This document shows, piece after piece, positions 33,922 to 49,781 of a stretch of 64,000 nucleotides of DNA. A model generated the notes under the pieces. That model had not been told where the DNA came from. It saw only the letters and a program-made list of their open reading frames with translations, and did not search any database. Within the stretch, counting starts at the first letter, position 1. Every line of letters begins with the position of its first letter. The stretch covers positions 1 to 64,000 of the forward strand of contig JALWVU010000052.1 in assembly GCA_027079305.1 (NCBI GenBank), written 5' to 3'. This DNA is from Aquificaceae bacterium (lineage in GTDB: Bacteria > Aquificota > Aquificia > Aquificales > Aquificaceae). A program made the position numbers and the translations under genes.

Positions 33922-34575
33922 TCACATGAAACCGCACTTCCATGTAGAACCCTCGAGGTTTTCCTTCTTATAGGAGGTAAGCTTCTTTAGCTCAAGACCC
34001 TCCGTTTCCCTGCTCAGGAAGGATCTAAGTAGCCGGGCCATCATTCTGTAATAATCCTCTTCAGTGGAAGATAGAACCTGTTCCACGAACACCTCGAACC
34101 ACCTTCCCAGGTGATCCCTGAGGAACTTGGTGTAGGCGTCCTGAACTATCTCCCTTCCCTCACCCTCGAGGAAAGAGAGCTTCTGACTCAGGAAGGATAG
34201 AAACTCCAGCTCCGCAACGAGGCTGTCGGGCTCCTGGGGAGGCTTTACCTCGAGTCCAAAGGCCCTGTAGAAACCCTCTATGTCCGCCATCTCCATAACG
34301 CGTCTTCCCATCTTGTCAAGCTCGTAGGAGGTCTCCCTTGCGGGAGCCTTTAGCTGGGTCTCGAAGAGGGTCGTGAACTCTCCCTGTAGGTCCTCTACCC
34401 TGCCCTCGCAGGATCTTAGAACCTCTCCCAGCCTGTCCACGGGAAAGTCTATCCCGAGAGCCTTCAGGCTCTTCTCGAGGTCCGGAAGGGCCTCCCTCAG
34501 CTCTCTGAGGCTTTCATAAGAAGGGTAGGAAAAGGCGAGGGCGAGGAAGCGGTAAAGGAAGGCTTTCTCTATCAT
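33922..34575 (-). CDS. TorD/DmsD-family molybdoenzyme chaperone
   Basis: 217 residues, all-helical, with the TorD pattern FLYRFLALAFSYPSYESLRELREALPDL (read in parts), LQGEFTTLFE, and a region of ADIEGFYRAFGLEV then PDSLVAELEFLSFLSQKL. These chaperones bind the Tat signal and help insert the cofactor in the catalytic subunit of DMSO-reductase-family enzymes. It is last of the alpha-beta-gamma-chaperone operon, 3 bases after the gamma subunit, which fixes its partner as the alpha subunit at 36586. Confidence 0.88.
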   Translation of the reverse strand: MIEKAFLYRFLALAFSYPSYESLRELREALPDLEKSLKALGIDFPVDRLGEVLRSCEGRVEDLQGEFTTLFETQLKAPARETSYELDKMGRRVMEMADIEGFYRAFGLEVKPPQEPDSLVAELEFLSFLSQKLSFLEGEGREIVQDAYTKFLRDHLGRWFEVFVEQVLSSTEEDYYRMMARLLRSFLSRETEGLELKKLTSYKKENLEGSTWKCGFM

Positions 34576-34578
34576 GAC

Positions 34579-35424
34579 TCACCTCTCTATCCTTAGTTTT
34601 ATCCACTGGTAGCTGAGGACCTTTCTCGCACCCCTATTTCCGCTACTTCCGTCCCATACAGCGAAGGTAACGAAGGTATCCCTGCCAGGTCCCCACTCGG
34701 GGTTGCTCGTGTTCTCCTCCACGAAGTCCCTCTTTATCACCACGTACCACTTCCCGTTCCTGTAAACTCCTCTTCCGTCCGCCCCCTGAACGTCCTTCCA
34801 GGTGGAGGAACCGTAGCCTTCCGCCACCACTTCCCTTATGGGCGTTTTGAGTGTGTTCTTCCTGTAAACCTTCTCACCCCCTATATATGCGAGGGCATAC
34901 TGGTTGTTCCAGTCCTCGGGATACCTGTAGGGAGGTTTCGCGTGGGGATACCAGTCGTAGGCGTAGTTGGGATGTATCTTGGCAACGTCCGAGTAGCCGT
35001 TGTCTATGTTCTCCTGCCTGAAGGCGGTCCAGTGAAGGATTAGGACCCTCTTCCCTTTAGCTCCCATCGTTACGGGAACGTCAGCGCTCGGCTCGTAGGG
35101 GATCTGAACCGCAACCGCATCCGAGAACTTGTTTATAAGGTGGAACCTGTCCTGGGTTTTGTCCTCCCATATAAGTAGGAAGGCTATCTCCTTGCCGTTG
35201 TTCACGCTCTTGACGGTTATCTCGCTGATGGGCAGATTCACCTCCATGGGCTTTGTTACCGTCTGCCCGGCGAGGGGAACCTTTACAGCCTTGGCCTTCT
35301 TCCAGACCTTGCTGAAGGGATCCGTGGGTATGGGGCCTTTGACCTTAACCGATACGAGCTCGAGTCCGAAGGAGAGGGCCAGACCTGCGAGGAAAGTTAT
35401 CAAACCAACGACCAGCCCGTTCAT
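34579..35424 (-). CDS. Haem-b-binding gamma subunit of the molybdoenzyme (EB_dh/NxrC-like)
   Basis: 281 residues with an N-terminal hydrophobic export segment (GLVVGLITFLAGLALS). The body is beta-rich and resembles the haem-b domain of ethylbenzene dehydrogenase and NXR gamma subunits: SDAVAVQIPYEP, AYDWYPHAKPPYR, and GKWYVVIKRDF near the C-terminus. It would pass electrons between the iron-sulfur chain of the beta subunit and a periplasmic or membrane carrier. It stands 12 bases after the beta gene. The family call rests on layout and order as well as sequence. Confidence 0.82.
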   Translation of the reverse strand: MNGLVVGLITFLAGLALSFGLELVSVKVKGPIPTDPFSKVWKKAKAVKVPLAGQTVTKPMEVNLPISEITVKSVNNGKEIAFLLIWEDKTQDRFHLINKFSDAVAVQIPYEPSADVPVTMGAKGKRVLILHWTAFRQENIDNGYSDVAKIHPNYAYDWYPHAKPPYRYPEDWNNQYALAYIGGEKVYRKNTLKTPIREVVAEGYGSSTWKDVQGADGRGVYRNGKWYVVIKRDFVEENTSNPEWGPGRDTFVTFAVWDGSSGNRGARKVLSYQWIKLRIER

Positions 35425-35436
35425 ATCACCACCTCC

Positions 35437-36573
35437 TCAAGGTATGTCCTGCCTGACCACGCCGAGCCTCTCGTCCTTGTGGGGCCTTATCTGGAAAGGC
35501 TCGTAGAGGGGAACCCTCACTATCTCGTTCATGTTCTCGTCGTAACCTATGACCTCGTTCGTTCCAGCGCTGAAGTGGTGGACAATCCTGTCGGTAGAGC
35601 CGAAGAGGTGAAGAAGCGCCTGAAGCTCCGGCTCTTTACCCTCTCTCATGGCCATGTAGGTCTTGACCGCGTGCTCCGCCCCGGGACCGAACATCTGCTT
35701 GAGGAAGCTGAGGGGAACGTTTATGGGAGGTATGTAGTAAACGTTAGGCTCGAGGCCCGTCTGGGGATAGAGGGGGAGGGCCACCTTCTTGATCCTCACG
35801 AGGAAGTCTATGGGGTTGTCCCGCTTCTCCTCACCGGGTCTGCTCAGGAATCCCATCAGCCTTATCTTCCCGATACAGGTTATGACGCACTGGGGCTGGA
35901 GGCCGTTCTCAACCCTGGGGAAGCACCCTATGCACTTCTGGGAGATCCTAGCCACGTAGTTGAACATGCTCTTCTTGTAAGGGCAGGCCTTGACGCACTC
36001 CTGGTAGCCCTCGCACCTCTCGGGATCTATGAGGACTATCCCGTCCTCCTTCCTCTTGTAGATGGCCTGTCTGGGGCAGGCGGCCACGCAGGCGGGGTAG
36101 GTGCAGTGGTTGCAGATTCTGGGCAGGTAGAACATCCATATGGGATGGGGAAACTTCTCCAAGACCGTTCCTATGTCCACCGGCTCGTTCACCTCGTCCT
36201 CACCTATGTTGGGGTTGGTCCAGTCCAGATCGTCGGGCATCCACCCGAGGACGGGTTCCGTGTCCGTCCCGTCGAGGACCGTCTTGCCCTCGTATCTGTC
36301 CCCCTTCCATCTCTGATCCTCTCCGAGAAGTTCCATCAGTTTGACGTCCCACCCGAGGGGATAGAAGCCGTTCGGTTTGGTCTCCACGTTGTTCCAGAGC
36401 TGATACTCCTGTCCCCTTCCTGGCGTCCATGTGGTCTTGCAGGCTACAGTGCAGGTCTGACAGGCTATGCACTTGTTGAGATCCATGACGACCGCGAACT
36501 GCTTCTCGGGACGCTCGTGCTCGTATGGGTAATTTACCTCCCTGTTGATTTGCCAGTTGTAAGCCTTAGCCAT
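35437..36573 (-). CDS. Iron-sulfur beta subunit of the molybdoenzyme (NarH/NxrB-like)
   Basis: 378 residues with four cysteine sets: C35-x2-C38-x2-C41-x3-C45 (CIACQTCTVACK), CNHCTYPACVAACP, CEGYQECVKACPYKK and CIGCFPRV...CVITC. Together they bind three [4Fe-4S] clusters and one [3Fe-4S] cluster; in the set CEGYQEC a tyrosine stands where a fourth cysteine would be, as in NarH where it is tryptophan. No signal peptide is present, so it is exported by piggy-backing on the alpha subunit's Tat signal. It is 12 bases downstream of alpha. Confidence 0.93.
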   Translation of the reverse strand: MAKAYNWQINREVNYPYEHERPEKQFAVVMDLNKCIACQTCTVACKTTWTPGRGQEYQLWNNVETKPNGFYPLGWDVKLMELLGEDQRWKGDRYEGKTVLDGTDTEPVLGWMPDDLDWTNPNIGEDEVNEPVDIGTVLEKFPHPIWMFYLPRICNHCTYPACVAACPRQAIYKRKEDGIVLIDPERCEGYQECVKACPYKKSMFNYVARISQKCIGCFPRVENGLQPQCVITCIGKIRLMGFLSRPGEEKRDNPIDFLVRIKKVALPLYPQTGLEPNVYYIPPINVPLSFLKQMFGPGAEHAVKTYMAMREGKEPELQALLHLFGSTDRIVHHFSAGTNEVIGYDENMNEIVRVPLYEPFQIRPHKDERLGVVRQDIP

Positions 36574-36585
36574 GGCAACACCCCC

Positions 36586-39500
36586 TTATGAAAACTTCAC
36601 GTAGCTTGCCTTCAGATACTTGGCGAAGGCCCTGCTCGGCTTGTGGGGCCTGAGACCGAGTCTCACTGGCCTCCAGACTCCCTTGCCGTTCAGACCTCCA
36701 GGTTCCGCCTTCACTATCTTGGCGTAGGCCTCCCTCGGAGCACCTATCAGACAGTGGACGTCCGGGGCAAAGCCCTTTCCTATGACCTGTCCCGCCAGGT
36801 TCTTCCTAACGAGGGAGTCCGTCTGCAGAGTAGCCTTGTGCCAGCTTCTCGTTACGCTCTGGTGGGAGCCTCTCCTATACATCGACTGGTATCCGGTGTA
36901 GGGGTTCTTGGCGAGGCCGTTCTTGTTCACCTTAGTTCCGAGCACCGAACCGTGGGAGGATCCGTACATGTTGAACCATATCTTGGCAACTCCGGGAGGC
37001 GTGTTGTTGGAAGCTCTCGCTCTCAGGAGGAGCCTCGCGACCTCGTAGTCTTCCTTCCTCTTCTCCCATCCCGCGAAGGGCCTGTCCTGGGGATCGGGGT
37101 CTACCCAGACGTAGTCCCCGTCCTCTATACCGAGCTTCCTGAGATCCTTCGGGTTCATGTCTATGTAAGCCTCGGAGACAAAGGGCTTCCTCTTGTCGTG
37201 CCTGTATATGTCCCCGAAGGGTCCAAATAGCAGGGTGGTTATGTCGGTGTCCCCCGTCGTTGTGTGGGCCGCGTGCCTGTATTTGGGCGTGTGGACTATG
37301 TGAGTCGCTCCGAGGGATAGCCTCAAGGGGTGCTTGGTCTTCTTTAACCTGGCCGGGGACACGATTACGTTCCTCGCCTGTCTCCACTCGGTGTTTATGA
37401 GGGCCTCCTTGGAATCTACGCCGTAGTCCTCGGGTCTCTTGGGCCTCAGGAGAGGATGCTTCTTAGCAACCACTATCACGTTAGGCTCGAAGTCGGTGGC
37501 GTCCACGGGTTCCCTGTAAACGGGCAGGTTCTCACCCGCCTCGATGAACTCCCTCTCCTCCCTGTAGAACTCCATCCTACCGCTCTTGGTATACCAGGGC
37601 ATATTGTCCTGTAGCTGGTCCATGCCAACGTATTTGGGGTAAGTTCTGGTCATTATTAGGGAGGGGATTCCCTCCTGGGCCTTCTTGGCTATCTCCTCGA
37701 GCTTGTAGCCCCTGAGGTTGGCGGAGGCGTTTATAACCCTCTGGACGTAAATCTCCTGCTTGCCCTCGAGAACGAACTTCCAGTAGTCTGCAAACCTTCT
37801 GTCTCCCGTGAGCTCCGCAAGCCTCCTTCCCACGAGGGCGAATACCTCCGCGTCGTTCTTGGTGTCGTAGAGCCTCCTGTGTCCCGTCTTGGGCCATACG
37901 TAGACGAAGGGGTTTGTAACCGAGCCAGCTATGTCCCAGTACTTGTTCTCGTTCCAGGCGTCCACTCCGAGAACTATATCCGAGTACTCACAGGTCAGGG
38001 ACCACCACCACTCGTTGGTGACTATGCACTCTATCTTGGGAAGGGTGTTCATTATGATGTTGTACTTCCACTTGGCGTTTCCGAGGATGGAGTTGGCGTC
38101 CACGAACCAGCAGAATTTGGTGGGTGTGGGCATGTGGGTCTTGCCCGTTATCAGATGCTTGCCCATGAACTGGGGATGATCGTCGTGGGAGTAGTAGTGG
38201 GCGGACTCCCCCTTCCAGTACCTCTTCACCTTGGCGGGCTTCTTGGGATCGAGCTCTATGTTGAAGGGATCCTCTAAGAAATACTGGCCCACTCCGTTGA
38301 AGAGGGCGAGCCTGAAGTTCCCCGCGTAAGAGCCGATGTTCCCGGTAAGGTGTCCCACGTTGTCGGTGAGGGCTACGATCAGATACATGGCCCTGTCCTT
38401 GAGGTCTCCGTGGAAATACTGGTTCACGCCCATTCCCTGGGCCAGCTTCATGTTTCTCGGGTGTGCAGCTATCTCCCTCGCGAGCTTCACTATCTTCTCC
38501 GCGGGGACACCCGTTATCTTCTCTGCCAGCTCGGGCCTGTAGTTGTCCTCGAAGAACTCCAGATAAACTTGGAAGAGGGGCTTGACCTTGACCTTCTTGC
38601 CCTCGACTGTCCTCACCGTGAACTCTCCCGTGAGGGCGGGATCTATACCCAGCTTCCAGAAGTCGTCCCCGACGTCGTCTCTGGTGATCACCTTGGGGGA
38701 GTTGGTCTTGGTATCCCAGACGACGAAGTCGTTCATGTCCTCTTCCCTTATTTTTTCAGGTATATACTGCTTCTCCTGCTTGTAGAAGGGAGGTAGCCTG
38801 TCTCCTTTCCTGAAGACCTCCGCCTTCTTGAGGGGTTTTGGTTTGTAGTCCGGTATTATGTCTTTGGCCCTGAGGACCTTTCCGTTGTCCATCCTCACAA
38901 GGAGGGGCATATCGGTCCAGGCCTTCACATACTTCTCCTGGTAGAGCTTCTCCTTCATGATCACGTGGGCTATTGAGAGGGCGAGGGCCGTATCCGTTCC
39001 AGTTCTCACCACTATCAGCTCGTCGGAGGCCCTTGCGGTGGGAGAGTAGTCGTTGGAAATCACTATCACCTTGGAGCCCTTTATCCTCGCCTCGGTGAGC
39101 CAGTGGCAGTCGGGCATCTTGGTGGTGAAGGGGTTCATCCCCCAGAGGATTATGAGCTTCGAGTATTCCCAGAGACATAGGTCGAAGTCTGTGTTCTGCT
39201 GGCCCGTTACCATCGGGTGTCCGGGGGCGAGGTCCGTGTGGAAGGAGTAGTTGTCCCAGCCCCTTCCTCCGAGGGCCTTCTCCGGTGGAACACCCCTGAT
39301 GTGGTGATCGAGGAGGGCCATGAGGTTGGCCATCCTGTAGGGGGAGGTGTATCTTACCACCGCGAGGAAGGGCATGGACCCCCTGAACTTGAAGGTCCTC
39401 GTTCCCGCCCCCTTCATCTCGTCGAGCATCTCCTTGGGATAGTGGCCCTGGGCTTCGAGCCTCTTCCTTCCCTCCTCACCCGAGTAGGTCTGGGCTATGT

Positions 39501-40053
39501 TTATCATCGTCTTGGCTATAATGTCCGCCACTTCGTCCCATGTTACCTTTATGAACTTGTCCTTACCCCTCTGGAAGTATTTCTCTGGAGGCTTTCCCGT
39601 CTTAGGATCCCTCGGGAAGCCCGCCTTATACCACTCGTAAAAGCCCTTCCTGACCATGGGGCCTTTGACCCTTCTGTCCCCGTAGAACCTTCTCATGAGG
39701 GAGAGTCCCTTGTTACAGCACCTCGGCTCCCACCTGGGAGACGCTTTGAGGCCGTATATGTCCGTGGCCTCGTGGAAGCGGTAGGTGGGCTCGATCCTTG
39801 TGACCACACCGTTCTTGACGTGGGCTCTCAGCAGGCAGTTGTGGGTGTCGTTCGGGGCGCAGAGGAATACGAAAGTGTCCTCGGACTTGAAGATGTCCCG
39901 ATACATGGTCTCCCATTCGCGGTTTGGGTAGTGCTTGATGGGGTTATCTACCTTGACCACAGGCTCAAAGACTCTGAGAGAGAAGCTCGGTGAAGAAAGG
40001 GCTGCCAAGGAAAGGCCGCCTACCTTTACGAAATCCCTCCGAGTCAGGCTCAT
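36586..40053 (-). CDS. NXR-like type II DMSO reductase family molybdoenzyme, catalytic alpha subunit
   Basis: 1155 residues. A Tat signal (TRRDFVKVGGLSLAALS) opens the protein. The N-terminal cluster motif aligns with NarG as C65, D69, C73, C113: the second ligand position is Asp. H-x-D274-LAPGHP (FHTDLAPGHP) matches the NarG/NxrA segment that gives the Asp ligand to molybdenum. The remainder is a full bis-MGD enzyme of NarG size. Similarity in my reading is to periplasmic NXR-type enzymes (Nitrospira-like, Hydrogenobaculum) more than to membrane-bound NarG. It could reduce nitrate or oxidise nitrite, or act on a related oxyanion. Gene order is alpha-beta-gamma-TorD; no NarI-like membrane subunit is present. 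Confidence 0.88.
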   Translation of the reverse strand: MSLTRRDFVKVGGLSLAALSSPSFSLRVFEPVVKVDNPIKHYPNREWETMYRDIFKSEDTFVFLCAPNDTHNCLLRAHVKNGVVTRIEPTYRFHEATDIYGLKASPRWEPRCCNKGLSLMRRFYGDRRVKGPMVRKGFYEWYKAGFPRDPKTGKPPEKYFQRGKDKFIKVTWDEVADIIAKTMINIAQTYSGEEGRKRLEAQGHYPKEMLDEMKGAGTRTFKFRGSMPFLAVVRYTSPYRMANLMALLDHHIRGVPPEKALGGRGWDNYSFHTDLAPGHPMVTGQQNTDFDLCLWEYSKLIILWGMNPFTTKMPDCHWLTEARIKGSKVIVISNDYSPTARASDELIVVRTGTDTALALSIAHVIMKEKLYQEKYVKAWTDMPLLVRMDNGKVLRAKDIIPDYKPKPLKKAEVFRKGDRLPPFYKQEKQYIPEKIREEDMNDFVVWDTKTNSPKVITRDDVGDDFWKLGIDPALTGEFTVRTVEGKKVKVKPLFQVYLEFFEDNYRPELAEKITGVPAEKIVKLAREIAAHPRNMKLAQGMGVNQYFHGDLKDRAMYLIVALTDNVGHLTGNIGSYAGNFRLALFNGVGQYFLEDPFNIELDPKKPAKVKRYWKGESAHYYSHDDHPQFMGKHLITGKTHMPTPTKFCWFVDANSILGNAKWKYNIIMNTLPKIECIVTNEWWWSLTCEYSDIVLGVDAWNENKYWDIAGSVTNPFVYVWPKTGHRRLYDTKNDAEVFALVGRRLAELTGDRRFADYWKFVLEGKQEIYVQRVINASANLRGYKLEEIAKKAQEGIPSLIMTRTYPKYVGMDQLQDNMPWYTKSGRMEFYREEREFIEAGENLPVYREPVDATDFEPNVIVVAKKHPLLRPKRPEDYGVDSKEALINTEWRQARNVIVSPARLKKTKHPLRLSLGATHIVHTPKYRHAAHTTTGDTDITTLLFGPFGDIYRHDKRKPFVSEAYIDMNPKDLRKLGIEDGDYVWVDPDPQDRPFAGWEKRKEDYEVARLLLRARASNNTPPGVAKIWFNMYGSSHGSVLGTKVNKNGLAKNPYTGYQSMYRRGSHQSVTRSWHKATLQTDSLVRKNLAGQVIGKGFAPDVHCLIGAPREAYAKIVKAEPGGLNGKGVWRPVRLGLRPHKPSRAFAKYLKASYVKFS

Positions 40054-42201: not shown

Positions 42202-42459
42202 CTATCTTCCCAGCTGTCTGCACACCTTAAGATGGGCTAAGAGGAGTGAATTAGCGCCCTCGTCCCTCAGGATCTCTCTGAGAGCAAAACAGCAGAGTTT
42301 TACATTGCTGTCTTCCTTCCTCGAGGGAACTCCCCCGTGGGCGTATCTTCCGAGGACGTGTCCGCAGTCCACGATCTTTCCTTTGTAGGTTACCAGACCG
42401 TTGTAGGAGGTTTGGGAAAAGGCAAGGGAAAATGACAGAAGTAAGATAACAGTGATCAT
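42202..42459 (-). CDS. Small secreted cysteine-containing protein
   Basis: 85 residues. A signal peptide (VILLLSFSLAFSQ) is followed by a short mature region with four cysteines in VDCGHVLGRY, LCCFAL and KVCRQL. Disulfides in the periplasm are likely. The ATG overlaps the preceding paralogue's stop by 4 bases (ATGA). A CGHxxLG-like segment recurs in the secreted protein at 45333. No recognised family. Confidence 0.6.
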   Translation of the reverse strand: MITVILLLSFSLAFSQTSYNGLVTYKGKIVDCGHVLGRYAHGGVPSRKEDSNVKLCCFALREILRDEGANSLLLAHLKVCRQLGR

Positions 42460-43232
42460 CTTCCCACCTTCCTGTAGCCCTCCGGGACGTGGAAGAAGCT
42501 CTCGGGAAGATCCACCTTTCTGACCGATTTTACGACCTCCCTTGTAGTGTCTACCCCGTCCGAGTATTCTTCCATGACCGGAGCACCATAATCTCTCAGT
42601 ATGTTTCCGAGCGCATTCAGTATACCTTTCAGGGAGGGAAGATTTTCGAGCCTGCTTCCCACGGCGGTTATCAGGTTCCCCATGTGCAACCTCTCAGCCT
42701 CCAAAAGTAGCTTGCTGTCCCTTGTATACCATCTGTTTGTAGTAAAGGCTCCCTGGTTAGATACAGCCTTAAGGACAACCTTCCTTGCCTTCCATCCGTT
42801 CAACTCCTTCCACTCGTCGGTGGGTTCAACCTTCAGCCTGCACTCTCTAATTCCATCGCAGGCAAGTGGGCCCAAGGATTCCAGCACCGCTGTATCACCG
42901 GGAAGCACATCTTCCGTGTAGTTTTTCTCCTGATCGTTAGGGGAGTAGAAGAAGACCTTTCCCTTTTTGAAGTGTATAAGCATAACAGCCCTCATTCGGT
43001 ATTTGGTCTTTCCGGGTATCCCATACATCCTGAGGAATTCCTCGGGAAGCTTACTTATATAAACGCTCTCCTCTTCGATTTCCTCCCTCTCGTATCCTTT
43101 CGCTATGTATAGCTTTACCTTTCTGTATGTTTTTCTTATGAAACTCTCTTTGAAAAGTTCCTTCTCCACAACTATAACGGGAATGGGGAAGGCGAGCAGG
43201 AAGGAGAGGAGTAAGCCTGCCAGAAGTCTCAT
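42456..43232 (-). CDS. Secreted protein, paralogue 1 of a tandem triplet
   Basis: 258 residues with a signal peptide (LLAGLLLSFLLAFP). The mature part contains a cysteine pair C-x5-C (CDGIREC), then EPTDEWKELNGWKARKVV, WYTRDSKLLLEAER, a DYGAPV stretch and SVRKVDLPESFFHVPEGY at the end. These blocks are shared with the next two genes upstream. The fold looks like the beta-strand plus helix arrangement of DUF4412/LolA-like periplasmic proteins, but I cannot name the family. ATGA overlaps at both ends tie it to its neighbours. Confidence 0.65.
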   Translation of the reverse strand: MRLLAGLLLSFLLAFPIPVIVVEKELFKESFIRKTYRKVKLYIAKGYEREEIEEESVYISKLPEEFLRMYGIPGKTKYRMRAVMLIHFKKGKVFFYSPNDQEKNYTEDVLPGDTAVLESLGPLACDGIRECRLKVEPTDEWKELNGWKARKVVLKAVSNQGAFTTNRWYTRDSKLLLEAERLHMGNLITAVGSRLENLPSLKGILNALGNILRDYGAPVMEEYSDGVDTTREVVKSVRKVDLPESFFHVPEGYRKVGR

Positions 43233-44056
43233 CTCTGTCTATACATATTGTAGCCTCCTAAGGGCGGTTTGAACTCCCGATATCCTTTAGGGACCTGGAA
43301 GAAGCTCTTGGGAACGTTTACCCTCTTTACGGACTTTACCACCTCCACCGTTGTGCTACTCTTAAAGGGTGTTTCGGTCTTGACGATTGCCCCGTAGTCT
43401 TTCTCTATCTTCTCGAGAGCCTTTTTTGCACTCTTCAAAAATGGAGAGATCTGAGGATCATTCCCTACAGCCCGGAGGACATTCTTCATGTTTATTCTCT
43501 CAGCCTTCAGAAGTAGCTTGCTATCTTTTGTAAACCAGTGATAAACCGGCTTCTCACGTCCCATCATGTTAACCCGCACGATGACCTTCCTCGCCTTCCA
43601 TTTGCCTATCCTCTTTACCTCCTTGGTGGGTTCAACCTTGGGTTTGCACTTTCCCTGCTGGTTGCAGTCGAGGATCATCATGAAGCCCATCAAAAGCATT
43701 CTGCCTTCCAGCTCGTTTTTCACGTATGTTTTCTTGTCGGGATCCAGGGTATAGGCTACGACCTTTCCCTTTTTAAAGTGAGTGATCTTCTCGCCTCTGT
43801 TTATCTGAGTTTTCGGTCCCTGCTCCGGAACATTCTTCATAAAGTTCTGCATAAAGGGCATCTGTCCGAGTGGATTTCCCTTGAAGGTGGTCTTCTCCTC
43901 CCAGACCTCCTTCTCGAAACCCTCCGCCCTGTAGATCTTCACCTTCTTGTAGCTCTCGCTGAAACTGCTCTTGTTGATAACCTCCTTTTCAATAAGTATG
44001 GCGGGTATAGAAAACCCCAATCCCAGGTAAAGGAGAAGCAAGATCAGCACCTTCAT
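43229..44056 (-). CDS. Secreted protein, paralogue 2 of a tandem triplet
   Basis: 275 residues, signal peptide LILLLLYLGLGFS. C-x5-C reads CNQQGKC, followed by EPTKEVKRIGKWKARKVIV, WFTKDSKLLLKAER, DYGAIV and SVKRVNVPKSFFQVPKGY. It is clearly the closest relative of the paralogue at 42456, with the same block order. A Met-rich insertion (PLGQMPFMQNFMKNVP) is unique to this copy. It overlaps the following gene by 4 bases and stands 12 bases after paralogue 3. Confidence 0.65.
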   Translation of the reverse strand: MKVLILLLLYLGLGFSIPAILIEKEVINKSSFSESYKKVKIYRAEGFEKEVWEEKTTFKGNPLGQMPFMQNFMKNVPEQGPKTQINRGEKITHFKKGKVVAYTLDPDKKTYVKNELEGRMLLMGFMMILDCNQQGKCKPKVEPTKEVKRIGKWKARKVIVRVNMMGREKPVYHWFTKDSKLLLKAERINMKNVLRAVGNDPQISPFLKSAKKALEKIEKDYGAIVKTETPFKSSTTVEVVKSVKRVNVPKSFFQVPKGYREFKPPLGGYNMYRQR

Positions 44057-44068
44057 GGCACACCTCCT

Positions 44069-44884
44069 TTAAATGGGAAGTTTTATCTCTTCATAATCCT
44101 TTGGAGGTTTAAACATACTCTCTGGTATATTTATCCTCTCCACTCTTTTGACGGTCTCTTTGACAAATCTGTAACTTCGAGTATCTACTTTCAGCATCCT
44201 GACGGGCGCGCCGTGTTCTTTTATAAAGCTTTGAAGTTCCTGAAAGGCATCATTGTATAGATTCAGAAGATCTCTGTTCTCCCTTAGTCCTCTCTCCACA
44301 GCCTTTATCTGCAATCTGAGGATGGTAAGGTTTGCCTCCTCGAGGTCCTTATCCTTAGCTATCCATGCTACAAACTTCTCTGTTCTTACCGTAAAAACAA
44401 CCTCCTTGGCTTTCCATTTAACTATCTTTTCCTCTCTGCCTGTGAATTTGTAAAAGCTCTTGTTCAGGCTACACCTTTTCTCGTAATTGCATAGAACGGG
44501 CAAGCTGAGAAATTCTCCCTCAAGTATCAGCTGATTAACAAAATGTTTGTATGGAATCAGGAGTCTTCTGAACAGTTTCCTGTCGTGATCCACGTAGTAA
44601 GTGATTATACCTTCCTTCGAAAGGAGACCTATGCTTGTTGATCTTGCTCTCAACACCTCTCCGCTCGACTCTATAACCTTTTCTTCCCTTATGAAGGCGT
44701 TCTCCGTTACGAAGTCCTTGACCTCTTTCAACTGGCTACCCGCATCGGGCAAACATGCACCGAACTTACCGGTTATATGTTTCACTCCCGCATATCTTAC
44801 CTCGACGATTTTCTCTATCAGATACCCCTCGACCGCATATGAGCTAAAGGTTATTAAGATTAAGAGTGTTAGTACCCACCGCAC
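44069..44884 (-). CDS. Secreted protein, paralogue 3 of a tandem triplet (divergent)
   Basis: I prefer the GTG at 44884 because AGGGGGAG lies upstream of it; another GTG at 44911 would overlap the preceding gene. The signal peptide is VLTLLILITFSSYA. Its blocks are weaker but in the same order: C-x5-C as CNYEKRC, VKWKAKEVVF, WIAKDKDL, EHGAPV and TVKRVERINIPESMFKPPKDY. It has an extra Cys near the N-terminus (FGACLPDAG). The oldest or fastest-changing of the three, by eye. Confidence 0.6.
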   Translation of the reverse strand: MRWVLTLLILITFSSYAVEGYLIEKIVEVRYAGVKHITGKFGACLPDAGSQLKEVKDFVTENAFIREEKVIESSGEVLRARSTSIGLLSKEGIITYYVDHDRKLFRRLLIPYKHFVNQLILEGEFLSLPVLCNYEKRCSLNKSFYKFTGREEKIVKWKAKEVVFTVRTEKFVAWIAKDKDLEEANLTILRLQIKAVERGLRENRDLLNLYNDAFQELQSFIKEHGAPVRMLKVDTRSYRFVKETVKRVERINIPESMFKPPKDYEEIKLPI

Positions 44885-44900
44885 ATAATCTCCCCCTGTA

Positions 44901-45323
44901 TCAGAATTCACCGAATATTAACCTGTTGGGATCTTCCTCTGAGAGCTTTACTCCCCTGCTCAGGATATACTTCTCCAGGTTTCCCCGATCTCTGAGGGGC
45001 GTGAGCCTCTTCTCCCCCTCAGGGGTTTCCCAAAGAACAGAGTAAGAGTCTCCCTTGACCACCACGTCAGGTTCGAGCTTCTTGAAACCTTTGCCTTCCA
45101 TGATTTTAAGGAATGTATCCTCCTCCAGGGCCAGAACGAAGAGTGGGTAGTCCTTCCTGACTTCTGGGGAATCGTCCACGGTAATATCGAGCTTCTTGAA
45201 AACCTCGAGCATTGCTTCGGACAGGGCGTTCCCGAAATCTTCCTCTGTCAGCCTGTCATCCCCCACAAACCAGATCTGAAACCTGTCCTCGTAGGAGTTC
45301 AGTTCAAGCTTAAAATACTTCAT
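44901..45323 (-). CDS. Cytosolic-looking protein of unknown function
   Basis: 140 residues, acidic, with alternating strands and helices and no signal peptide, so it differs from its secreted neighbours. KYFKLELNSYEDRFQIWFVG begins it; no motif is recognised. It lies 16 bases upstream of paralogue 3 and 9 bases downstream of the secreted gene at 45333, so it is embedded in the secreted operon. Confidence 0.6.
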   Translation of the reverse strand: MKYFKLELNSYEDRFQIWFVGDDRLTEEDFGNALSEAMLEVFKKLDITVDDSPEVRKDYPLFVLALEEDTFLKIMEGKGFKKLEPDVVVKGDSYSVLWETPEGEKRLTPLRDRGNLEKYILSRGVKLSEEDPNRLIFGEF

Positions 45324-46052: not shown

Positions 46053-47252
46053 TTACCCCCTCCTTACCCTGTAGAATTTCTTCTTCCCTACCTGGACCTT
46101 GAGCTCCCCGTTCAATTTTATGCTCTGGTGAGGATCGGTGATCTTCTCAAAATTCACCTTGAGGCCTCCTCCCTGTATGACTCTCCTTCCTTCGTTCTTT
46201 GAGGAGACCGCTCCAAGCTTTATAAGAAGGTCGAGAGCCTTTATCTCCTCGTCAGGCAGTTCGACGAGGGGGGCGTCCTCGGGAAACTTTCTCTTGGAGT
46301 AGGTGCTCTCGAACCACTCCCTGGCTTTTTTAGCCTCCTCCTCCGAGTGGAATCTGCTCACTATAATCTCCGCAAGGTGCTTTTTGGCCTCCATAGGATG
46401 CCAATCTTTTTTGAACCTCTCTATCTCTTCCTCCCTGTAGTCCGTCAACAGCAGGTAGTAATCCCACATGAGATCGTCCGAGATGGACATGAGCTTTCCG
46501 AACATGGTCTTGGGGTCCTCTGTTATCCCCACATAGTTTCCGTAGGACTTGGACATCTTCCTGACGCCGTCCAGACCCACCAGCAGGGGAAGGGTCATGC
46601 AAACCTGGGGCTCCTGTCCGTATTCCCTCTGGATGTCCCTCCCTATCAGGAGGTTGAACTTCTGGTCCGTTCCTCCCAGCTCCACATCAGCCTTTATGGC
46701 TACCGAGTCGTAGGCCTGGAGGAGGGGATACAGGAACTCGTGGATGTGTATGGGCTTACCCTCCTTAAAGCGCTTTGAAAAGTCCTCCCTCTCGAGCATC
46801 CTTGCGACCGTGTATTTGGCGGAGAGCTTTATTAGACCTTCAGTCCCAAGCTCCTGGAGCCAGGTGCTGTTGAAGACTATCGTGGTCTTTTCGGGATCAA
46901 GGATCTTGAAGACCTGCTGTTCGTAAGTCCTGGCGTTCTCGAGGACCTCTTCCTTTGTTAAAGGTGGCCTCGTCTCGCTCCTTCCCGTGGGATCCCCTAT
47001 CATGGCGGTGAAGTCCCCGATTATGAAGTAGACCTCGTGGCCGAGCTGTTGAAACTGGCGCATCTTCTGGAGAAGGACCGCGTGTCCCAGGTGTAGGTCC
47101 GGAGCTGTAGGATCAAAGCCGGCTTTAACCCTGAGAGGTCTTCCTTCCTTAAGCTTCTTAAGGAGTTCCTTCTCCTCTATTATTTCTACCGTTCCCTGTT
47201 TGAGGAGCTGGAGCTGCTTTTCCGGACTCACGGGAGAAAGATTATAACCCAT
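46053..47252 (-). CDS. tyrS: Tyrosyl-tRNA synthetase
   Basis: 399 residues. Class I signature motifs are HLGHAVLL near residue 55 (HIGH-like) and KMSKSYGN near 235 (KMSKS), with [11 protein letters not shown] and [13 protein letters not shown] around the tyrosine site. A C-terminal S4-like domain ([14 protein letters not shown]) binds tRNA. Its start lies 11 bases inside the end of iorB, an odd pairing with a Tat-exported oxidoreductase. Confidence 0.97.
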
Positions 47253-49338
47253 AGTAGGGAAGCTCCGTGATAGGCTTCCCCGTAATTCTGAAGAGGGCGT
47301 TGGCGACCGCCGGAGCTATCGGGGGAAGGCCTGGCTCCCCTATCCCTCCCATCTCACCCTCCGAGCGGACTATGTGGACCTCTATCTCGGGAACCTCCCC
47401 CATCCTCAGGATAGGGTAGGTGTCGAAGTTGTTGTTCACCGCGAAGCCGTTCCTGAACCTAACACCCTCGTAGAGGAAGGCGCTCAGGCCCATGATGATC
47501 CCGCTCTCCATCTGCTGGACCACCAGATCCGGATTAACCACGAGGGGCCCCAGATCCACCGCACACACCACCCTGTGGACCTTGACCCTGCCATCTATCA
47601 GAGACACCTCCGCCACCTGGGCCACGTGGGTTCCGAAGGAGTGGTGGTAGGCTATCCCGAGGGCCTGTCCCTCCCTAGGTCCCCTGTGCCATCCGGAGGC
47701 CTCCGCCACCTTCTCTATAACCCCCTGGGCCCTCATGTGCATCCCCAGAAGCTCAAGCCTCAGGTCCACGGGGTCCTTTCCCCCCAGGTGGGCGAGCTGG
47801 TCCAGGAAGGTCTCCATTACGTAGGCGTTATGGGTGTGGCCCACAGAGCGCCAGAACCAGACGGGGATCTTAACCTTTGACTTCACAAACTCAACGTGGA
47901 TGTTGGGGATCTCGTAGAAGGTGTTGGCCACTCCGGAGACCGCGGCACTGTCAACTCCCCTCCTCTCCTTACCTATAGCCCACTCGAAGACCGCCGGGAC
48001 AGCTATCTTGAAGTAGAGGGAGTTGGGGTTTCCTCTGTTGTCCACCGAGCCCCTGAGCTTCACCGCACACATGGGCCTGAACCAGCCAGACTGCACGTCG
48101 TCCTCTCTCGTGTAGAAGAGCTTCACGGGCCTTCCCGTCTTCTTGGCGATCTTGAGGGCCTCCGCCACGAACTCTGAGTTTGACTTCCTCCCGAAGCCTC
48201 CTCCGAGGTATGTGGTTATCACCTTTATCCTGCTCTCGGGGAGTCCCGTTATGCGCCTCGCGTGCCTGAGGACCGAGGTCTGGCTTTGGGTGGGGGCGTA
48301 TATGGTGCATCCGTCCCTGTCGATTTTGACCGTGCAGGCCATGGGCTCCATGCAGGCGTGGTAGAGGTAGGGAAGGAGGTAGGTGAGCTCTATTCTTTTT
48401 GGGAACTTTTCGTAAACCCCTTTCGGATCTCCGTCCTTGCGGGCTATGAGGCCCCTCTTCTGGAGGAGCTGTATGTAGTGTTCTTTGAGATCTTCCGTGC
48501 TTCCTACGGAGGTTTTGCTGTATTTGACCTTGAGCTTCTTCCTCCCCTCCAGGACCGCTTCGGGACTCTCCCCGCAGACCGCCACGCCCTTCCCTACTCT
48601 GAAGACGTGGGTGACACCCTTTACCTTCCTGGTTTCGGAAGGGTCGTAGGAGACTATCCTGCCCCCGAAGGGAGGTCTCTCCACAACCGCATACAGCTGG
48701 TTTTCGAAGAAGTGGTCCAGTCCGAACCTCGCCTCCCCGCTTACCTTATCATCGAGGTCAATCCTCGGAAGGGACCTGCCTATGTATCTGAACTCCTCTG
48801 GATCTTTGAGCTTGGGGTAAAGGGGCACGGGGAGCTTCATGGCAAGGCCCGCCAACTTACCGTAAGGGACCTTTTTGCCCGTCTTCGTATCGATCACATA
48901 GCCCAGCTCCGCCTTGAGCCTGCTTTTGGGGACCTTCCAGAGCCTCGATGCGGCCTCAATCAGCATCTCCCTCATCACTGCACCAGCGGAGCGCATTATG
49001 TCGAACATGTGCCTTATGCTGGTGCTCCCTCCGGTGAGCTGGGATCCCATATAGGGGTCTATGTATGCCTTTCCCGCAGGGGCGGGCATAACCTTTACCC
49101 TATCCCACGGAAAGTCGAGCTCCTCCGCAACGAGCTGGGCTATCCCCGTGTAGACCCCCTGGCCCATCTCCGACTTGTTAACTAAAACCGTAAGGTAGTT
49201 ATCTTCCGAGAGGTTTATCCAGAGCCTGGGGGAGTGCCTCTTCAGATCGTTCGCCTTAACTACGTCAAAGCCCTTCGAGGTAGCCACAATCAGCAGGCTC
49301 AGGCCTCCGAGCTTGAAGAACTCCCTCCTCGTCATCAT
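47242..49338 (-). CDS. iorB: Tat-exported molybdopterin oxidoreductase, IorB-like large subunit
   Basis: Start at ATG 49338 (ATGATGA overlap with the iorA stop); the longer frame adds 21 unconserved residues. Tat signal [18 protein letters not shown] leads. The body has [53 protein letters not shown] and, near the C-terminus, [13 protein letters not shown] with the Glu of the molybdenum site. This is the xanthine dehydrogenase-family layout of isoquinoline 1-oxidoreductase beta. The substrate (aldehyde or N-heterocycle) is unknown. Its partner is the small iron-sulfur subunit just upstream. Confidence 0.9.
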
Positions 49339-49781
49339 CCCATCATCTCCGAGGCTCTCATCACCGCCCTTACTATCCTCGGGTAGGTCCCGCATCTGCA
49401 CAGGTTCCCGTTCATGGCCCTTACGATCTCTTCCCTCGTGGGTCTGGGATTTCTACTGAGCAGGGCGTAGGCCCGAACTATCTGACCGCTCTGGCAGTAT
49501 CCGCACTGTGGGACTCCCACCTCCTTCCAGGCCCTTTTAATGGGATGGTTTTCGGGTATTCCTTCGATCGTCGTTATACTCTTTCCGACCACGTTCCCTA
49601 CCTGCACACTGCAGGAGCGGACGGGCTCCCCGTCCACAAGGACGGTGCAACTACCGCAAATTGCCTTCAGACACCCGAATTTGGTTCCCGTCAGTTTCAG
49701 ATGCTCCCGGAGCACCCAGAGAAGAGGAGTTCGGGGATCTACGTCTACTCGGTAAAGCCTCCCGTTTACCTTCAGCTCCAT
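49335..49781 (-). CDS. iorA: [2Fe-2S] small subunit of the IorAB-type oxidoreductase
   Basis: 148 residues with two [2Fe-2S] sets: GTKFGCLKAICGSCTVLVDGE near residue 35 (plant-ferredoxin type) and PQCGYCQSGQIV plus MNGNLCRCGTYPR near the end. There is no signal peptide, so it is exported with iorB. It is first in iorA-iorB-tyrS and diverges from a small lipoprotein gene. Confidence 0.93.
   Translation of the reverse strand: MELKVNGRLYRVDVDPRTPLLWVLREHLKLTGTKFGCLKAICGSCTVLVDGEPVRSCSVQVGNVVGKSITTIEGIPENHPIKRAWKEVGVPQCGYCQSGQIVRAYALLSRNPRPTREEIVRAMNGNLCRCGTYPRIVRAVMRASEMMG

Follow-up and report, generated by a model that had tools for sequence, protein, structure and literature searches.

The window analysed here, a 64,000-nucleotide stretch of an Aquificaceae genome, encodes a molybdoenzyme related to nitrite oxidoreductase (NXR), with an aspartate at an iron-sulfur ligand position. 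The question raised by this locus is whether the aspartate points to nitrite oxidation, or whether the complex is a nitrate reductase facing the periplasm; both options had been left by a first reading of the DNA without database searches (the sequence-only reading). We consider it probable, at roughly 0.86, that the locus is a four-gene operon for a periplasm-facing respiratory nitrate reductase, composed of NarGH, an EbdC/NxrC-like haem-b subunit and a TorD-like chaperone.

Operon organization and cofactor ligands

The operon, its ligands and its export signals were read directly from the DNA. The genes and key residues are as follows.

36586–40053, minus strand: alpha subunit (NarG/NxrA, type II DMSO-reductase family), 1155 aa, with Tat signal and bis-MGD Mo site
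40036–40041, minus strand: Tat twin-arginine pair R5-R6, seen in the sequence TRRDFVK (alpha residues 4–10)
39859–39861, minus strand: Cys65, FS0 ligand 1; His49 in E. coli NarG, Cys67 in Kuenenia NXR-A
39850–39852, minus strand: Asn68, proposed substrate-coordinating residue; Asn70 in Kuenenia NXR-A
39847–39849, minus strand: Asp69, FS0 ligand 2; Asp71 in Kuenenia NXR-A, Cys53 in E. coli NarG
39835–39837, minus strand: Cys73, FS0 ligand 3; Cys75 in Kuenenia NXR-A, C57 in E. coli NarG
39715–39717, minus strand: Cys113, FS0 ligand 4; Cys115 in Kuenenia NXR-A
39232–39234, minus strand: Asp274, Mo ligand; Asp275 in Kuenenia NXR-A
35437–36573, minus strand: beta subunit (NarH/NxrB), 378 aa, with exactly 15 Cys, all within four cluster motifs
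34579–35424, minus strand: gamma subunit (NxrC/EbdC type), 281 aa, with N-terminal signal/anchor helix and haem-b domain PF09459
35065–35067, minus strand: Met120 of gamma, haem ligand; Met155 in Kuenenia NXR-C
34621–34623, minus strand: Lys268 of gamma, haem ligand; Lys305 in Kuenenia NXR-C
33922–34575, minus strand: delta, TorD/NarJ-like cofactor-insertion chaperone, 217 aa

The alpha ORF is uninterrupted and starts with ATG. Its FS0 region reads FLC65APND69THNC73 ... PRCC113NKG (CAPNDTHNC at residues 65–73 and RCCNKG at residues 111–116); the Mo segment reads YSFHTD274LAPGHP and follows the pattern Y-4x-D-11x-QN. Cys65, Asn68, Asp69, Cys73, Cys113 and Asp274 align gap-free with Cys67, Asn70, Asp71, Cys75, Cys115 and Asp275 of Kuenenia NXR-A, respectively; in the Kuenenia NXR crystal structure (7b04), FS0 is coordinated by Asp71 and three Cys (PMC8387239). 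In the profile alignment to E. coli NarG, Cys65, Asp69 and Cys73 fell on H49, C53 and C57; the NarG chain aligned was that of 3ir5, an H49C mutant. Compared to NarG, two of the FS0 ligands differ: the first is Cys instead of His, and the second is Asp instead of Cys. The sequence-only reading had rightly placed the Asp at the second ligand; the change at the first goes beyond what it stated. Its statements that the Mo segment FHTDLAPGHP is retained, that the alpha subunit is exported by the Tat pathway and that NarI is lacking were also borne out: Asp274 pairs with the Mo ligand of Kuenenia, the twin-arginine pair is kept in 37 of the 38 aligned rows (the remaining row is truncated and has a gap there), and the four-gene cluster contains no NarI-type gene.

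The AlphaFold model of the alpha subunit reached a pLDDT of 44 with 16 sequences and 64 with 33; even with the larger set, the loops around FS0 and Mo scored under 50. Therefore, the site geometry was taken from the homologous crystal structure. A fold search with the alpha subunit returned 7b04 again as the top match, which confirms the family only.

Wherever ingroup rows extend over the site (36 rows, Kuenenia and nitrate reducers among them), Asp69 is invariant, and it is therefore not a chance substitution. The presence of Asp at FS0 had already been noted previously (PMC8387239), and it is a known trait of the periplasmic Nar/Nxr branch. Because it is common to nitrate reductases and nitrite oxidoreductases, Asp69 marks the clade rather than nitrite oxidation and cannot tell the catalytic direction. 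The haloarchaeal outgroup carries Cys at this position.

In the beta subunit, motif III holds Tyr190, as in a [3Fe-4S] FS4, and Cys45 is located where Nitrospira NxrB has Asp45. The beta subunit has no export signal, and would be co-exported with the alpha subunit. The haem ligands of the gamma subunit are kept in every homologue covering them (Met in 19/19, Lys in 18/18). The four genes lie on the same strand in the order alpha-beta-gamma-delta, alpha first, with intergenic gaps of 12, 12 and 3 bases; each is preceded by a purine-rich stretch suited to ribosome binding. The same order is also found in at least 7 Aquificaceae loci and in WOR-3 MAGs; in one WOR-3 operon (L028), two small cytochromes c come next.

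Relatives and phylogeny of the alpha subunit

When solved structures were searched with the alpha subunit, Kuenenia NxrA (7b04) was by far the best match, with 902 bits over the full length; perchlorate reductase PcrA (206 bits), E. coli NarG (∼153 bits) and ethylbenzene dehydrogenase (140 bits) followed. The kinship with NXR of the Nitrospira/anammox type, which the sequence-only reading had proposed, is supported. The identity between the window alpha and Kuenenia NxrA is 41.1% over the full length. Anammox NXR shares ∼60% alpha identity with homologues of nitrite-oxidising and comammox bacteria, and ∼40% with those of Nitrotoga and Hydrogenobaculum (PMC8387239); the window alpha does not reach the ∼60% level. 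The features taken to define the periplasmic Nar/Nxr clade are present, namely the motif C-x-P-N-D-T-x2-C ... C, a Tat alpha, a signal-less beta, an EbdC-type haem-b gamma with Met/Lys, and no NarI; those of cytoplasmic NarGHI, the FS0 His ligand and the NarI subunit, are missing.

Within the phylum, the alpha gene was found in 19 of 136 genomes, all of one family. The two closest contigs with a name, L010 at 98% and L018 at 92% alpha identity, belong to Aquificaceae/Aquificota MAGs, in agreement with the thermophilic chemolithotroph presumed at the outset. Among the other genomes, we take G028 to be Hydrogenobacter thermophilus TK-6, as its single 1,743,135-bp contig encodes a 100% match to the cytochrome c552 of that strain. 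The window proteins are 82.6% (alpha), 81.5% (beta) and 71% (gamma) identical to those of this genome. A second genome, G032, is very probably Hydrogenobaculum Y04AAS1; its alpha is 66% identical to the window alpha, and the alpha gene is divergent to nirS (cd1 nitrite reductase) and haem d1 genes.

The maximum-likelihood tree comprised 38 alphas, with Kuenenia as the only NXR included; Nitrospira, Nitrospina and Nitrotoga were placed from published trees. The window alpha falls inside an Aquificaceae clade together with TK-6 (100/100), and Kuenenia falls outside (100/99). The check proposed with the sequence-only reading, an Asp at FS0 together with grouping with NxrA rather than with NarG, came out positive. 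Alphas from three alphaproteobacterial MAGs and from one MAG labelled Desulfuromonadales nest inside the Aquificaceae clade, which suggests lateral transfer or binning error. In the phylum of an alphaproteobacterial MAG, 21 of 398 genomes carry alphas of the same clade; apart from that of the centre MAG, these are ∼47–53% identical, with Asp wherever the motif is covered. In the plasmid search, the best full-length matches were haloarchaeal homologues; we are unsure of the place of these long-branched rows in the alpha tree. The phage search with the alpha subunit gave nothing relevant.

Several of the homologues are unusual. In that of the Halobaculum sp. CBA1158 plasmid (L094:3001-6210), FS0 reads C-HPN-C-TQS-C, with Cys standing at the His position as well as at the Asp position, and it may be a four-cysteine FS0 variant. 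The alpha of Bacterium HR39 (L015, HRbin39) is 75% identical, and its N-terminus contains two in-frame TGA and altered residues. In L087:6850-10803 (G038), an insert of ∼500 bases splits the alpha gene after residue 165; within this insert, a 159-aa ORF that matches no Pfam family runs in the opposite direction. Plasmid 2 of Natronococcus occultus (L093:8001-11374) contains an unannotated alpha, 47% identical, with an apparent frameshift near residue 100; the N-terminal frame still reads CTPNDTHNC, and intact beta and TorD genes adjoin it. In one IMG/VR contig classed as viral (L092, 3300022719_000113), an alpha fragment of 124 residues continues in frame into unrelated sequence, and phage-like genes follow; the contig is most likely chimeric.

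Like the window, TK-6 has the same four-gene order and the FS0 motif CAPNDTHNC and belongs to Aquificaceae; different from the window host, it possesses a cd1 nitrite reductase. Hydrogenobaculum sp. has a putative nitrate reductase in the same operon, with FS0 CNPNDTHGC; its Mo segment is SEHTDLPPAH, compared to SFHTDLAPGH in the window, and its host has nirS. The Kuenenia stuttgartiensis NXR-A, -B and -C are full-length homologues of the window alpha, beta and gamma; the 3Cys/1Asp FS0, the Asn and Asp at Mo and the Met/Lys haem b are shared. However, the Kuenenia cluster contains 15 genes including NXR-T, whereas the window operon has four. The NXR of Candidatus Nitrotoga, compared by its published description, belongs to the same sister clade, with a Tat alpha, a Sec gamma without membrane helix and Cys at NxrB position 45 (PMC6050957); its Mo pattern ends in QM, whereas that of the window alpha ends in QN. 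E. coli NarGHI shares the type II family, the reaction and the Mo-Asp, but its FS0 is 3Cys/1His, it is located on the cytoplasmic side, and NarI serves as quinol oxidase.

Probable nitrate reduction and the alternatives

In passages of PMC6050957 and PMC7325909 that cite Kameya et al. 2017, NarG of H. thermophilus TK-6 is described as a membrane-bound nitrate reductase oriented towards the periplasm. With nitrate, TK-6 can grow in the absence of oxygen (PMC3111988), and the nitrate reductases of Hydrogenobaculum and Beggiatoa are related to Kuenenia NXR (PMC8387239). Since the TK-6 ortholog reduces nitrate, TK-6 grows on nitrate, and the Hydrogenobaculum-like alpha gene adjoins nirS, nitrate reduction is the best explanation for the window operon, and the enzyme is of an already known kind, the periplasm-facing Nar of H. 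thermophilus type. By analogy with the characterised relatives, it would reduce nitrate, face outward and carry the cofactors named above. The option of a periplasm-facing nitrate reductase raised by the sequence-only reading is thereby strengthened. Reading the Asp as a sign of nitrite oxidation is not supported, as the same Asp is present in the TK-6 nitrate reductase and in the nirS-adjacent Hydrogenobaculum-like homologue, and the group containing the window alpha does not include NXR proper (Kuenenia).

During assembly, the chaperone would fold the alpha subunit and load Mo-bis-MGD; the alpha subunit would then be exported by Tat, carrying the beta subunit along. The gamma subunit would be exported separately and cap the electron chain. 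A c-type cytochrome, itself reduced by the bc1 complex, would probably hand electrons to the haem b of the gamma subunit, from where they would travel through FS4-FS1 of the beta subunit and the 3Cys/1Asp FS0 of the alpha subunit to Mo. Nitrate, held by Asn68 opposite the Asp274-bound Mo, would be converted to nitrite outside the membrane. Owing to its Met/Lys ligation, the gamma haem b is probably of high potential, as is thought for such haems (PMC8387239). Cytochrome c is probably the donor, because the complex has no quinol-oxidising subunit, the gamma haem is Met/Lys-ligated, the host has cytochrome c552 homologues, and cytochromes c follow the WOR-3 operon. Asp69 may have a redox role.

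The host genome, which is 99.86% complete, gave no match to nirS or to nirF/nirN-type genes when searched for the cd1 haem domain, and the copper nitrite reductase family (nirK) matched only below its cut-off; a full-length nirS-type match was found in 6 of the 8 congeners searched. This absence does not fit simple denitrification, as the usual downstream step of the enzyme is missing in the host, which may stop at nitrite. norB is present, with a cytochrome-c/NorC-like gene beside it. The other Mo-bis-MGD enzymes found in the host are formate dehydrogenase, two PhsA-like proteins and the assimilatory NasA, which belongs to a NirB-like/NarK/NasA cluster.

We judge it very unlikely that the complex is instead a physiological nitrite oxidoreductase of a thermophilic nitrite oxidiser, in which a haem-copper oxidase would receive the electrons of nitrite by way of the gamma haem and cytochrome c. 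The clade includes the NXR of Nitrotoga, and its nitrate reducers might oxidise nitrite (PMC6050957); Kuenenia NXR works in both directions, periplasmic NXRs being reversible (PMC8387239). Besides norB, the host has three haem-copper-oxidase-type genes, and nirS and nirK were not found in its genome. By its name, HRbin39 seems to come from the 65–70 °C reactors that made nitrate for years and whose NarH/NxrB was distant from known NxrB (PMC5877337). However, the name is the whole of this link, and the alpha of HRbin39 is degraded at the N-terminus. The nearest characterised relative is a nitrate reductase, and the host combines norB with the assimilatory nitrate cluster. Aquificaceae are known for hydrogen and sulfur oxidation, and no cultured member is known to oxidise nitrite; all of this counts against nitrite oxidation. 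That the enzyme of this nirS-less and nirK-less host works mainly as an O2-coupled nitrite oxidoreductase, which would make the host a thermophilic nitrite oxidiser that belongs to none of the known groups, is a long shot. The reaction of the window enzyme may be reversible; its sequence does not give the catalytic direction, and little in the host genome suggests that nitrite oxidation is its physiological role.

Another substrate, such as perchlorate, chlorate, selenate or an ethylbenzene-like compound, is used by other type II members with the same architecture (PcrABC, SerABC and EbdABC), and the window proteins match TIGR03479/03478/03477, all below their cut-offs. We consider this highly improbable: TIGR03479 gave 339 bits versus a cut-off of 985, Kuenenia NxrA scores four times as high as PcrA, and the Asn68 of NXR/NAR is kept, whereas EbdA has Ile. 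An ordinary cytoplasmic NarG-type nitrate reductase, with the Asp as a misaligned residue, has practically no chance of being correct. Its weak similarity (TIGR01580, 179 bits versus a cut-off of 1084) is set against the Tat signal, the lack of NarI, the full-length identity to Kuenenia NxrA and the gap-free, clade-wide Asp; the NarG profile alignment and the ingroup alpha alignment refuted it.

Implications and other genes of the host

The Asp-ligated FS0 is common to a branch that contains both nitrate reductases and nitrite oxidoreductases; therefore, the Asp is unusable for annotating NXR in metagenomes. NarG (His/Cys), the haloarchaeal L094 (Cys/Cys) and the window clade (Cys/Asp) constitute a natural series for the effect of ligands on cluster potential. 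If the nitrate reductases of the clade are reversible, they would be concrete candidates in the search for thermophilic nitrite oxidisers.

Three further observations concern other genes of the host. Contig C25 (L064) encodes a fused 990-aa protein with a NirB-like N-half and a ferredoxin-nitrite-reductase-like C-half; beside its gene lie narK and a NasA gene that is truncated where the contig ends. In the window, positions 42456–44911 hold three consecutive genes for related proteins of 258–280 aa, which probably carry signal peptides and match no Pfam family; neighbours are 39% and 28% identical. A second molybdoenzyme, the large subunit of a xanthine-dehydrogenase-family protein with an N-terminal twin-arginine motif, is encoded at 47242–49401.
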